A stretch of 64,000 nucleotides of DNA from Marixanthomonas sp. SCSIO 43207. Lineage in GTDB: Bacteria > Bacteroidota > Bacteroidia > Flavobacteriales > Flavobacteriaceae. A program made the position numbers and the translations under genes. The notes beneath the pieces are model-generated. The model did no database searches. It had not been told where the DNA came from and saw nothing but the letters and a program-made list of their open reading frames with translations. Each line of letters starts with the position of its first letter. Positions within the stretch are counted from its first letter, which is position 1. The stretch lies in assembly GCF_019904255.1 (NCBI RefSeq), contig NZ_CP063203.1, positions 434,001-498,000 on the forward strand. Reading direction: 5' to 3'. Of this stretch, positions 28,079 through 59,623 are shown piece by piece.

Positions 28079-30576
28079 TATTTTTTCTTAGCTGATGTTT
28101 TTTTCTTTTTTCGGGTTTTCTTTTTTGGCGCTTTTTTTTCTAAAATATCTTTTGCTTCTTCAAGCGTAATTTTATCGGCTTTTGTACTCTTAGGAAGCTC
28201 AACTTTTGTTTTACCTTTAATCAAATTGAAACGCCCCCAACGTGCTTTTTCTAGTCGTATACCTTCATCTGGCCATTCATTGATCAATTTATCAATTTCT
28301 TTTTGTTTTTTGACCTCTATCAATTCAATAATATCTTCTTCTGAAAGATTATCAAAATCATACTTCTTGTTCACGTTGATAAACATACTATTCCATTTAA
28401 TAAATGGACCGAAACGCCCAACCCCTTTTTGAACCGGAAGCCCTTCATACTCATATATAGGTGCGTCTGCTTTTTTCTTTTCTTCAATCAACTCTTTGGC
28501 TTTTGCCATATCAACATCTAGAGGGTCCATACCCTTGGGTAATGATATGAATTTTTTACCCCAACGCACATAAGGTCCATACCGGCCATTGTTAGTCTCT
28601 ACTTCTTCTCCATCATATACACCTAGGTCTTTAGGAAGTTTAAATAAATCTAGCACTTCTTCTAGAGTAACTAAATGCAATTGTTGATCAGGACGCAAAC
28701 TGGCAAATTGTTTTTCCTCATCATCTGGAGCGCCTATTTGAGCCATTGGTCCGTATTTTCCTAATCGCACCAACACGGTTCTACCACTTTCTGGGTGTTC
28801 TCCCAGGATGCGCTCGCCGCTTTCGCGTTCTGCATTTTCTTGAACGTCTTCTACGTGTGGATGAAATTTCTTATAAAAATCTTGAAGCATTTCTTTCCAC
28901 TGCTCTTTTCCTTCGGCAATGTCATCAAAGTCTTCTTCTACTTTTGCCGTAAAATTATAGTCTAGAATATTTCCGAAGTGATCTACCAAAAAGTCATTAA
29001 CTACCATACCTATATCTGTTGGGACCAACTTTCCTTTATCACTTCCTACAGTTTCTGTTAAGGTCTTATCTTTTACGGTGTCACTTTGTAATGTTAATTG
29101 AAGATACTTTCGCTCGGTTCCTTCTACGGTTCCTTTTTCAATGTAGTTTCTACCTATAATTGTTGAGATGGTAGGCGCATAGGTTGATGGACGACCTATA
29201 CCTAACTCTTCCATTCTTTTCACAAGAGAGGCTTCTGTAAAGCGGTACGGAGGTCTTGTAAAACGTTCTGTAGCGGTGATATACTTATTATCCAATGTAT
29301 CTCCTTTGGTAAGCTTTGGCAACATACCATCTTGTTCTTCATCTTCGGTATCGGTTCCTTCTAAATACACTTTTAGAAAACCGTCAAACTTTATCATTTC
29401 ACCGTTGGCACTAAACTGCTCTTCAACTTTTTCTTTACCAAGCACGTCAATTTTAACATTGGTGCGTTCTAACTGAGCATCGCTCATTTGTGATGCTATG
29501 GTTCGTTTCCAAATTAAATTATACAAACGTTCTTGATCACGGTCGCCACTTATTGTGTGTCTTGACATATCGGTAGGCCGTATCGCTTCGTGAGCCTCTT
29601 GTGCTCCTTTAGACTTTCCTTTGTAGTTACGAGGTTTGCTATATTTATCACCGTAAGCCGAACTAATTTCCTTTTCGGCAGCTTTTTTGGCGTCATTAGA
29701 AAGGTTAACACTATCAGTACGCATATAGGTAATTAAACCTGCTTCATACAAACGTTGTGCAATGGTCATCGTTTTTCCTACCGAAAAGTATAATTTTCTT
29801 GATGCTTCTTGTTGAAGCGTTGATGTGGTAAAAGGCGGAGCTGGTGATTTTTTTGCCGGCTTTTTGGTAAGGTCGGCTATTTTGTAATTGGCACCAATAT
29901 TCTTCTGAAGAAATGCTCTTGCTTCTTTTTCGGTTTCAAAATTCTTTGGAATTTTTGCTTTAAAAGTGCTTCCGTCTTCTGTTTTAAACTCTGCATCTAC
30001 TCGATAGGATGCAACCGGTGAAAATGCTTCAATATCACGCTCGCGCTCAACTATTAAACGCACTGCGACACTTTGCACACGACCCGCAGACAGACCTCCT
30101 TTTACCTTTCGCCATAAAACTGGTGAAAGTTCATAACCCACCAAACGATCTAAAATGCGTCGCGCTTGCTGTGCATTTACAAGATTGTAATCAATTTTAC
30201 GAGGGTTTTCAATTGCTTTAAGGATTGCCGTTTTTGTGATTTCATGAAAAACAATACGTTTTGTTTTATCGTCTTTCAAATCTAGTTCTTCGGCCAAATG
30301 CCACGCAATAGCTTCTCCTTCTCGGTCCTCATCACTTGCAAGCCAAACGGTCTCAGCACTTTTTGCTAATTTTTTCAAGTCACGTACCAAGCTTTTTTTA
30401 TCACTTGGTACTATATATTTAGGAGTAAAATCTCCTTCGGTATCTACACCTATTTCTTTTGACGGCAGGTCTGCAATGTGCCCAAAACTAGAAGCAACCT
30501 TGAACTCTTTCCCGAGAAATTTTTCAATGGTTTTAGCCTTTGCGGGCGACTCTACTATCACTAAATTCTTTGCCAT
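28078..30576 (-). CDS. topA: DNA topoisomerase I TopA
   Basis: 832 residues from ATG 30576 (MAKNLVIVESPAKAKTIEKFLG); a TTG two codons earlier is less likely. Relaxes negative supercoils by a 5'-phosphotyrosyl break. The Toprim domain has VIVESPAKAK and LASDEDREGEAIAWHL; the active Tyr lies in GLITYMRTDS. In place of four-cysteine zinc fingers the C-terminus carries repeated Gly-x-Tyr/Phe-Gly-Pro units (KYGPMAQIG, YGPYVRWGKKF, RFGPFIKWN, RWGRFNLIKGK), then a Lys-rich tail (KKTRKKKKTSAKKK) that likely binds DNA. First gene of the topA / ureohydrolase pair. Confidence 0.96.
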   Translation of the reverse strand: MAKNLVIVESPAKAKTIEKFLGKEFKVASSFGHIADLPSKEIGVDTEGDFTPKYIVPSDKKSLVRDLKKLAKSAETVWLASDEDREGEAIAWHLAEELDLKDDKTKRIVFHEITKTAILKAIENPRKIDYNLVNAQQARRILDRLVGYELSPVLWRKVKGGLSAGRVQSVAVRLIVERERDIEAFSPVASYRVDAEFKTEDGSTFKAKIPKNFETEKEARAFLQKNIGANYKIADLTKKPAKKSPAPPFTTSTLQQEASRKLYFSVGKTMTIAQRLYEAGLITYMRTDSVNLSNDAKKAAEKEISSAYGDKYSKPRNYKGKSKGAQEAHEAIRPTDMSRHTISGDRDQERLYNLIWKRTIASQMSDAQLERTNVKIDVLGKEKVEEQFSANGEMIKFDGFLKVYLEGTDTEDEEQDGMLPKLTKGDTLDNKYITATERFTRPPYRFTEASLVKRMEELGIGRPSTYAPTISTIIGRNYIEKGTVEGTERKYLQLTLQSDTVKDKTLTETVGSDKGKLVPTDIGMVVNDFLVDHFGNILDYNFTAKVEEDFDDIAEGKEQWKEMLQDFYKKFHPHVEDVQENAERESGERILGEHPESGRTVLVRLGKYGPMAQIGAPDDEEKQFASLRPDQQLHLVTLEEVLDLFKLPKDLGVYDGEEVETNNGRYGPYVRWGKKFISLPKGMDPLDVDMAKAKELIEEKKKADAPIYEYEGLPVQKGVGRFGPFIKWNSMFINVNKKYDFDNLSEEDIIELIEVKKQKEIDKLINEWPDEGIRLEKARWGRFNLIKGKTKVELPKSTKADKITLEEAKDILEKKAPKKKTRKKKKTSAKKK

Positions 30577-30706
30577 ATTCAATTTTGTTTGGGGTACAAA
30601 AGTATGTGATTTTTTTTATACCATAGTTTTGCTTCATAAATTTAGCCTTCTGTTAACACGGTATGTTTCCAAAAATCAAGAGATTACAATATATAAATTT
30701 CAGCAT

Positions 30707-31327
30707 ATGTTACAAATAAATTCTGAAGTAATAAGATCAAGATACCTTGCCGCTATTGCACTAGCAGCTATAAGTTTACTCTTTACGCAATGCAGTTCTC
30801 TGGAAGATGTTTCTACTTTTTCAACCCAAAAAAACATTCATGTTATAGTTGAAATACCAGCAGGAACCAACGCAAAGGTTGAGTATAACAAACAACTAAA
30901 AAAACTAAAGATTGATCAAGAAAATGGTAAGGATCGCATTATAGAATACCTCCCCTATCCTGGCAACTACGGATTTATCCCTTCTACATATTCAAACCCT
31001 GAAAAAGGCGGTGATGGCGACCCTCTTGATGCTTTGGTTATATCATCCCGCTTGCTTTCGGGCTCTGTAGTTGAAACCATTCCTATTGGTGTTCTTAAAA
31101 TTTTGGACAACGGTGAGCAAGATTATAAAATAATTTGTATTCCGTCAGAAAAAAAACTACAAACTGTTTCTGCAGCATCGTTTGATGAATTTTCAGAAAA
31201 ATATCCAGATGCGCTTACAATAATCGAACTCTGGTTTTCAAACTACGACCAAAAAGATACTGTCATTGTTAAAGGTTGGGGTGATGAAAAGGAAGCCCTT
31301 TCTGAAATAAATAAGGTTTTAAAATAA
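30707..31327 (+). CDS. ppa: Family I inorganic pyrophosphatase with lipoprotein signal
   Basis: 206 residues from ATG 30707 (an upstream in-frame start is rejected because it runs through topA's promoter and start). The N-terminus LAAIALAAISLLFTQCSS looks like a lipoprotein signal with Cys29. The pyrophosphatase core follows: VEIPAGTNAKVEY, YLPYPGNYGFIPSTY, and the signature DGDPLDALV (Asp103, 105, 108), then GVLKILDNGEQDYKI with the Asp/Asp/Lys trio. So the active site seems complete, but the protein should be on a membrane surface, unlike the cytosolic textbook enzyme. It may serve periplasmic pyrophosphate, or the lipobox may be misleading. Convergent with the next gene. Confidence 0.85.
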   Translation: MLQINSEVIRSRYLAAIALAAISLLFTQCSSLEDVSTFSTQKNIHVIVEIPAGTNAKVEYNKQLKKLKIDQENGKDRIIEYLPYPGNYGFIPSTYSNPEKGGDGDPLDALVISSRLLSGSVVETIPIGVLKILDNGEQDYKIICIPSEKKLQTVSAASFDEFSEKYPDALTIIELWFSNYDQKDTVIVKGWGDEKEALSEINKVLK

Positions 31328-57670: not shown

Positions 57671-58795
57671 TTAATTTACAATTTGTTTTAAGACAGTTAA
57701 ATAGTCTTTTCTGTTTTTTACAAAGTCTAATTCTGAAATATCTAGAACCTTAATGCGGTTATCGTGTTGGTTTTTAATAAACTCAAGATATCCTTGGTTT
57801 ATTTTTTTTAAATAATCGGCTTCAATAGACTGTTCATATTTTCTTCCTCTTTTTTGAATGTTTTCAAGCAGTCGTTCTGTGTTTTGATATAAGTAAATGT
57901 ACACATCTGGCTTTGGCAACTCTTTATGCATCAAGTGAAAGAGTTTTTTATACAGGATATATTCTTCTTCAGCTAGTGTGACTTTGGCAAATATCAATGA
58001 CTTGTACACATCATAATCTGCTACAACACATTCTTTAAATAAATCAAATTGTTTAATATCATCTAGTAATTGTTGATATCTATCTGCTAAAAAAGACATC
58101 TCTAACGGAAACGCATACCGTTGCTGGTCTTTATAAAATTTTGGTAAAAATGGATTGTCTTTAAACCGTTCTAATATCAATTTTGCATTAAAATCTGATG
58201 CAATTTGTGTAGCCAAGCTGGTTTTTCCGGCGCCTATATTTCCTTCAATTGCTATATAATTAAATGCAGAAATATCATAATCGCTTTTGGGGTTTACCAA
58301 CCATTTTGATTGTTTTTCCAATTGGCTTTCATCTGTAGTTTCGGCCAATAATTTTATAATTTTTTTCTTAAAAACAGGATGATCTGTTTGAGCAGCTATT
58401 TCGGCCAAAGGCTGCAAAACAAATTTTCTATTTTGCATTTCAGGATGAGGAATAGTAAGTTTTTTACTTTCTTTAATTACTGCATCAACCAAAAGAATAT
58501 CAATATCAATAGGTCTTGATGTGTATCCTCCTTTTTTACGTTGACGTCCCATTTTTTTTTCAATGGAAAGAATTGCGTCCATTATTTTATTAGGAGAAAG
58601 CGTGCTTTGAACCAAGATTGCACAATTTAAAAAATCATCGCCTTCAAATCCCATTGCAGGAGTTTTATAAACTGATGATATTTTAATCACTGCACCTATT
58701 TCTTCATAAATTGAAGTTATTGCCTGTTGTAGGTTTTCAAATTTATTCCCTAGGTTACTACCTAACGATAAGTATATGTTTTGAAGTGGTTTGAT
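57671..58795 (-). CDS. folK: FolK (HPPK) - deoxynucleoside kinase fusion, probable ATC start
   Basis: About 374 residues. The N-terminal half is HPPK, which pyrophosphorylates hydroxymethyl-dihydropterin for folate: YLSLGSNLGNK, VYKTPAMGFEGDDFLNCAI and RPIDIDILLVD. The second half (about 175-374) is a deoxynucleoside kinase with P-loop IEGNIGAGKTS, the ERF box region LERFKDNPFLPKFY, and DRYQQLLDDIKQFD. The HPPK first strand with SLGSN is encoded before the first usual start codon, GTG 58690. Between the in-frame TAA at about 58818 and that GTG there is no ATG, GTG or TTG; ATC at 58795 (then KPLQNIYLSLGSN) matches where relatives start. A base error or an ATC start explains this. Without it the first 35 residues, needed for pterin binding, are lost. 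Confidence 0.75.
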   Translation of the reverse strand: MKPLQNIYLSLGSNLGNKFENLQQAITSIYEEIGAVIKISSVYKTPAMGFEGDDFLNCAILVQSTLSPNKIMDAILSIEKKMGRQRKKGGYTSRPIDIDILLVDAVIKESKKLTIPHPEMQNRKFVLQPLAEIAAQTDHPVFKKKIIKLLAETTDESQLEKQSKWLVNPKSDYDISAFNYIAIEGNIGAGKTSLATQIASDFNAKLILERFKDNPFLPKFYKDQQRYAFPLEMSFLADRYQQLLDDIKQFDLFKECVVADYDVYKSLIFAKVTLAEEEYILYKKLFHLMHKELPKPDVYIYLYQNTERLLENIQKRGRKYEQSIEADYLKKINQGYLEFIKNQHDNRIKVLDISELDFVKNRKDYLTVLKQIVN

Positions 58796-58902
58796 GGGTG
58801 TTTTCCAGTTATTTTTTTAGAAATAAAAAATCAATATTGAAACTTGATAGTGCAGCCTCACTAATTTAAGACGAAATTAAGGAAAAGAAAAATACTGACC
58901 AT

Positions 58903-58927: not shown

Positions 58928-59623
58928 GTGGAAATACAACAACGCAAAGATCTTTTATTAGCACAGCGCATCTACTTGATTTTGGGCGCTTTATTTATTG
59001 CCTCATTGGTAGTTTCCAATTTAATATTTCAGAAATTTTTTTACTGGGATTTTTTCGGAATCTACACATTTGAAATCTCTGTTGGAATTCTTCCCTACCC
59101 TATCACGTTTTTAATAACCGATATTATTAGTGAAGTATACGGAAAGAAAAAAGCCAATCAAGTGGTCACTGCCGGTATTTTTGCATCGTTCTTTTCATTA
59201 TTAATTATTTATGTTTCGGCAGCTGTCCCAGCAACAGATTGGAGCCCAATTGACGATGCTCTTTTTACAAAAGTATTTGGGGCTACAGCAATTGCAGTAT
59301 TAGCATCGATGTTGGCCTATTTGTTTGCTCAATACATAGACATTCAGATATTTCATTTTTGGAAACGCATAACCAAAGGCAAACATTTATGGATACGAAA
59401 CAATTTTTCTACTTTCTTTTCGCAGTTTGTAGACACATTTACAGTATTAATATTGCTCTGTAGTTTTGGAAAAATAGATTGGGGGTTATTTGGCGGTTTA
59501 TTACTAAGTGGTTTTCTATTTAAGGTATTGGTTGCTGCTTGTGATACTCCTCTTTTATACGCTGTTGTATTTGTAATGAGAAAACGATTTGGTTTAAAAA
59601 TGGGAGAAGAAATTAAAATGTAA
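58928..59623 (+). CDS. yhhQ: Queuosine precursor transporter YhhQ (GTG start)
   Basis: 231 residues, about six membrane helices, vitamin-uptake-like fold (formerly DUF165). The key stretches are YPITFLITDIISEVYGKKKANQVVTAG, FAQYIDIQIFHFWKRITKGKHLWIRNNFSTFFSQFVDT and KVLVAACDTPLLYAV. It brings queuine-type precursors (preQ0/preQ1) into the cell for tRNA modification. The GTG codon gives the normal N-terminus; no ATG is available in frame upstream. I saw no preQ1 riboswitch in the 100-base gap, and no que gene is nearby. Confidence 0.88.
   Translation: MEIQQRKDLLLAQRIYLILGALFIASLVVSNLIFQKFFYWDFFGIYTFEISVGILPYPITFLITDIISEVYGKKKANQVVTAGIFASFFSLLIIYVSAAVPATDWSPIDDALFTKVFGATAIAVLASMLAYLFAQYIDIQIFHFWKRITKGKHLWIRNNFSTFFSQFVDTFTVLILLCSFGKIDWGLFGGLLLSGFLFKVLVAACDTPLLYAVVFVMRKRFGLKMGEEIKM

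Follow-up and report, generated by a model that had tools for sequence, protein, structure and literature searches.

A putative near-cognate AUC start codon of the folK-dNK fusion gene, conserved in a clade of Flavobacteriaceae

The HPPK-dNK reading frame and its N terminus

Where does translation begin in a gene whose conserved N terminus lies ahead of every ATG, GTG, or TTG in its frame? The question is raised by the folK-dNK fusion, which joins an HPPK domain to a deoxynucleoside kinase (dNK) domain and has roles in folate making and in the recycling of DNA building blocks, in Marixanthomonas sp. SCSIO 43207. The window, that is, the whole stretch of 64,000 nucleotides that was analysed, carries it on the minus strand in a stop-to-stop frame of 381 codons (58816-57671). 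The frame is closed upstream by TAA (58819-58817), after which the minus strand reads AAA AAT AAC TGG AAA ACA CCC ATC, the ATC occupying 58795-58793, and continues with AAA CCA CTT CAA AAC ATA TAC TTA TCG TTA GGT AGT AAC. Between this TAA and the GTG at 58690 (58688..58690), the first canonical start in frame, there are zero ATG, GTG, or TTG codons in frame. We propose the ATC at 58793..58795 (AUC in the mRNA), 35 codons upstream of the GTG, as the start codon; the fusion would then extend over 57671..58795 (minus strand), with 374 codons plus the stop. Codons are numbered here from the Tyr of YLSLGSN as 0, so that the ATC is codon -7.

The upstream part of the frame completes the HPPK domain. 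With it included, the Pfam profile PF01288 is matched over positions 1-115 of 116 (129.9 bits), with the first strand and the GSN loop present, whereas translation from GTG 58690 gives a match only from profile position 29 (99.7 bits). The dNK domain PF01712 is matched by Pfam over positions 1-198 of 203 (144.5 bits), and its P-loop GNIGAGKT is present in the translation. In a PDB sequence match, the protein from the ATC on aligns with solved HPPKs, e.g., 3qbc, from its residue 7, the alignment beginning at the residue before YLSLGSN. The initial annotation had placed the closing TAA at about 58818, which is right to within a base, and its statements that no canonical start lies upstream of GTG 58690, that HPPK sequence continues for 35 codons upstream, and that a start at the GTG would cut the HPPK N terminus all agree with the minus-strand sequence and the Pfam matches. 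Gene finders limited to ATG, GTG, and TTG must therefore cut the first residues of this protein.

Over 400 kb we also took the 318 ORF pairs that are reciprocal best matches of this genome and one congener, and looked for conserved coding sequence ahead of the first canonical start. The longest such stretch is that of folK-dNK, with 38 codons and 32 identical residues, where differences fall 5/3/18 on the first, second, and third codon positions. The other 27 stretches of at least 10 codons reach 24 codons at most, and none among them has a comparable third-position excess. According to this comparison and the domain matches, the coding sequence begins before any ATG, GTG, or TTG, with an AUH codon (AUC, AUU, or AUA) at the predicted start position.

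Conservation of codon -7 among relatives

Seven Marixanthomonas genomes, this one included, were searched, and the 5' end of folK was readable in six of them; the seventh, which is 55% complete, gave a kinase paralogue only. Codon -7 is ATC in four of the six and ATT in two, and the sequence is nearly identical from the ATC on and diverges before it. For a wider comparison, start regions were taken from 149 family genomes, 397 family genomes, and 38 named loci. All 149 genomes of the former set gave an HPPK-dNK match, in some cases to one domain or a paralogue only; from this first listing, 100 places were fetched besides the given loci, and the most divergent or split matches, about 15, were left out. 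Before counting, we dropped dNK-only paralogues and fragments (L007–L013), a fragment (L074), non-flavobacterial loci (L077–L079), the infC loci, and the 20-kb stretches, and left out L059 and G207, whose 5' ends are missing. Rows that agreed in both protein start and start codons were then combined, which reduced 197 to 184 distinct loci.

By a fixed rule, these 184 loci start with ATG (116), TTG (26), ATC (23), ATT (16), ATA (1), GTG (1), or no assignable codon (1). The starts that lie at codon -7 itself are ATG in 104 loci, ATC in 22, ATT in 16, TTG in 11, and ATA in 1. A tree was built from 120 of the 184 proteins with the start region left out; it took in all rows of at least 60% identity and, below 60%, all non-ATG rows together with every third ATG row, and rows of 300 residues or fewer were excluded. 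This tree contains a clade of 64 Flavobacteriaceae rows, its branch having an SH-aLRT support of 86 on a quick tree run without bootstrap, that comprises 39 AUH, 22 UUG or GUG, 2 ambiguous, and 1 ATG start, the last at codon -9 (L028). The rule assigns TTG at -4 to L015 and L249, the two rows labelled ambiguous by hand. In the neighbouring group of the clade 39 of 40 rows start with ATG, as do 14 of 16 in the outer group. The named AUH members include Marixanthomonas spongiae and Ulvibacter antarcticus, and members of Aureitalea and Pukyongia start with TTG.

Codon -7 is ATG in none of the 64 clade rows and in 104 of the 120 rows outside, where "outside" refers to all rows not in the clade, including L006 (an ATT fragment that is off the tree) and L034 (no call). 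Conversely, ATH (ATC, ATT, or ATA) stands at -7 in 40 of the 64 clade rows and, L006 included, in 5 of the 120 outside. The AUH rows counted at -7 below number 39, with L174 (ATC at -9, on a long branch) excluded. The near-cognate codon is thus conserved in related species, both among the congeners and on the 120-protein tree. Other HPPK-dNK fusions of Flavobacteriaceae have the same two domains and, outside the clade, mostly start with ATG at the same codon, so that the ATC of the window occupies the homologous Met position, as the initial annotation had suggested. It had named orthologues lacking the GSN segment as a case against its reading; the orthologues we inspected keep the segment.

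Evidence for initiation at codon -7 and competing explanations

Several features of the AUH rows point to codon -7 as the start. The stretch between the upstream stop and the Tyr lacks canonical codons altogether in 29 of 39, and in 21 the upstream stop is at most four codons away. Against this count two rows (L002 and L006) in which a TTG at -11 immediately follows the stop, and 8 further AUH rows whose canonical codon lies at -16 or farther upstream. Stop codons begin at -10 in the 40 AUH rows inspected for them, and none lies within -9 to -1 (40/40). Parsimony counts of changes on the tree, given for the first, second, and third codon positions, are 110/105/109 for codons -16 to -8, which resembles non-coding DNA, 0/1/13 for codon -7, and 135/47/306 for codons 0 to 24. 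The counts for codons -6 to -2 (34/29/40), with their weak third-position excess, speak against coding from -7.

The upstream context was scored with a model trained on 311 ATG starts from two congeners. Among in-frame codons of the AUH rows the mean score is highest at -7 (1.62, the next being 1.05), although -7 is the best-scoring codon in only 14 of the 39 rows. Adenines at nucleotides -14 to -11 mark initiation regions in Flavobacterium johnsoniae, according to PMC6847099. Relative to codon -7, the fraction of A at these nucleotides averages 0.76 in AUH rows and 0.10 in folK genes starting with ATG, with 0.52 for other genes; in the window, the corresponding place relative to ATC 58795 (58806..58809, minus strand) has 1 of 4 bases A.

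A second codon competes with -7 for the role of start. The ATA at codon -1 (58775..58777, minus strand) is shared by 36 of 39 AUH rows, against 1 of the 25 other clade rows, a conservation nearly equal to that of AUH at -7, while other Ile columns have ATA in about half of the rows at most. In most rows it is preceded by a purine at -3 and a C at -1, as is the ATA of infC, and in the window its context score exceeds that of the ATC (1.89 vs 1.02). If ribosomes initiated there, alone or in addition to the ATC, the protein would begin (f)Met-Tyr-Leu-Ser-Leu-Gly-Ser-Asn and the ATC region would be leader. We consider this improbable: in none of the 184 loci is a canonical start found only at -1, the latest lying at -4; the stop-free stretch from -9 to -1 argues against it in 40/40 rows; the mean context score is 0.78 at ATA -1 against 1.62 at -7; and genes in general use ATA for Ile somewhat more often near their starts (80 of 195 Ile codons) than elsewhere (1939 of 6847). 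Moreover, L255, L263, and L265 keep AUH at -7 and are missing the ATA, so that the latter cannot be the only start in these rows. The ATA could act as a further near-cognate start or belong to the initiation context. Two further explanations deny the near-cognate start altogether, and we give neither any real credence. A start at GTG 58690, which we reject, has in its favour that it is the first canonical codon in frame, but the truncated HPPK would lose the first 28 profile positions, the context score of the GTG is -1.97, and the next canonical codon downstream of -7 occupies 14 different positions in the 39 AUH rows, so that the GTG is not conserved in place. A sequencing or assembly error at 58793, raised in the initial annotation and suggested by the oddity of the codon alone, is refuted by the same codon in relatives, since ATC, ATT, or, in one case, ATA stands there in 6 of 6 readable congeners and in many other genera, the 40 clade rows with AT[C/T/A] coming from many independent assemblies.

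If codon -7 is the start, its weakness could still be merely tolerated in a low-demand enzyme, having drifted after a change of promoter and leader and serving no regulation. The interchange of AUH and UUG on the tree is in keeping with this, and so is the loss of ATG from the divergently transcribed neighbour in the same clade, which fits a weakening of both genes. Against it stands the third base of codon -7, which varies among C, T, and A at the ordinary third-position rate and is never G, whereas in the same 39 AUH rows G-ending codons occur in 38 of 38 conserved fourfold columns. AUG therefore seems to be selected against at -7, although the common descent of the rows calls for caution. 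Choosing rows for AUH does not explain the absence, since clade membership was taken from the tree, and none of the 64 rows in the clade has ATG at -7. Mere tolerance is accordingly an unlikely account, even if a less remote one than those above. Since the weak codon has persisted, and AUG has been avoided, across this clade of marine Flavobacteriaceae, it most likely serves, under selection, to hold down the amount of enzyme. In several subclades UUG, which is not discriminated by IF3, replaces AUH, so that sensitivity to IF3 has not been retained throughout.

Initiation factor 3, leader, and comparison with known systems

Our preferred reading, to which we assign a probability of about 0.78, is that the conserved near-cognate start keeps HPPK–dNK translation low and sensitive to IF3. 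Ribosomes would initiate at AUC 58795, the initiator tRNA reading it with a third-base mismatch and placing Met as the first residue, on an mRNA predicted to have a leader and no Shine-Dalgarno sequence. Discrimination by IF3 against AUC, AUU, and AUA would make translation weak and scale it to the permissiveness of initiation, and the weak codon would be a selected device that holds HPPK-dNK low to the benefit of the cell. In PMC4611024, triplets with a 3' G are treated as canonical and AUU, AUC, and AUA as discriminated by IF3, from which weak translation of folK-dNK is expected. We found no AUC or AUU in PMC11497404, and no report of this folK-dNK start among the papers listed by a literature search that was mostly without subscription journals.

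Near-cognate starts themselves are known from infC, pcnB, and sigR, and the new element here is that a clade of Bacteroidota would use one, apparently under selection, in a metabolic gene. infC encodes IF3 itself and is autoregulated. We found it to start with ATA GCA in 21 of 21 parsed genomes out of 27 searched (L181, L184, L185, L187-L194, L196-L199, and L201-L206; in L191 an in-frame TTG lies farther upstream of the ATA). folK-dNK thus shares with the infC of the same genomes an AUH start with a 3' base other than G but differs from it in being a metabolic gene with AUC or AUU and, once, AUA. The initial annotation was right on the sequence and on its most likely meaning: an ATC start after the manner of infC is supported by the AT[C/T/A] codon of relatives, and limitation of expression by IF3 would follow from it. 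In E. coli, the chromosomal gene pcnB, which encodes poly(A) polymerase, is limited by its AUU start; folK adjoins pcnB there, although we claim no link to the present case. The closest published counterpart is sigR of Streptomyces, which has a conserved GTC start that is repressed by IF3 (PMC5472188). Both genes have a lineage-conserved non-canonical start that annotation misplaces, and the IF3-limited translation is reported for sigR, which has GTC and a long ribosome-binding site; folK-dNK has AUH, no Shine-Dalgarno sequence, and a Bacteroidota host, and its IF3 effect is a prediction. AUH starts are known from few bacterial genes, where they serve regulation; if our reading is true, folK-dNK, a metabolic gene that retains such a start across many genera with signs of selection against AUG, would lend itself to testing whether start-codon proofreading controls genes in bacteria that lack Shine–Dalgarno sequences. 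A search of a plasmid collection returned distant matches only.

A promoter-like element, TAATTTCG, lies at 58872..58879 (minus strand), 76 nt before the ATC, and resembles the Bacteroidetes promoter -7 element TANNTTTG. PMC6847099 gives this consensus and places transcription starts 4-5 nt from the element, and a leader of about 70 nt would result in the window from the position of TAATTTCG. TAnnTTyG occurs 15–35 nt upstream of the start in 23 of 40 AUH rows. In ATG rows, this strict form is rare at 6–14 nt before the start (4/116), and TAnTTTG is found at this distance in 86 of 116, compared with 2 of 311 other genes from Marixanthomonas. If TAnTTTG is the promoter, the folK mRNAs of ATG lineages would be almost leaderless, a hint only, since the published consensus has one base more than this motif, so that leader length in these lineages is a guess. 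Leaderless mRNAs need AUG and are inhibited by excess IF3, according to PMC9031893 and PMC4611024. Given this dependence, the loss of AUG may have become possible with a longer leader. Leader RNA folding gave no signal (z -0.90 and -0.54).

A broader and quite speculative reading, which we regard as improbable, would place folK-dNK under IF3-dependent translation by two designs, an almost leaderless AUG mRNA in the ATG lineages, as TAnTTTG would imply, and in the AUH clade a leadered AUC or AUU with adenines at -14 to -11 and perhaps the AUA as a second start. The formyl group on the initiator tRNA comes from folate, so that the gene could then act as a sensor of initiation, with feedback to folate synthesis.

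The divergent neighbour mentioned above is a membrane protein gene, presumably yhhQ-like, at 58928..59623 (plus strand), with a GTG start. Among its counterparts, 41 of 51 in the clade begin with GTG or TTG, whereas 57 of 61 outside it begin with ATG; AUG was thus lost from both divergently transcribed genes in one and the same clade. Both losses would be explained if the promoter region that the two genes share had become stronger and weaker starts compensated for this. Elsewhere in the window, a 359-codon open frame (30248..31324, plus strand) lies opposite a gene that we take to be topA-like and is conserved in a congener; it is probably a by-product of the coding strand.
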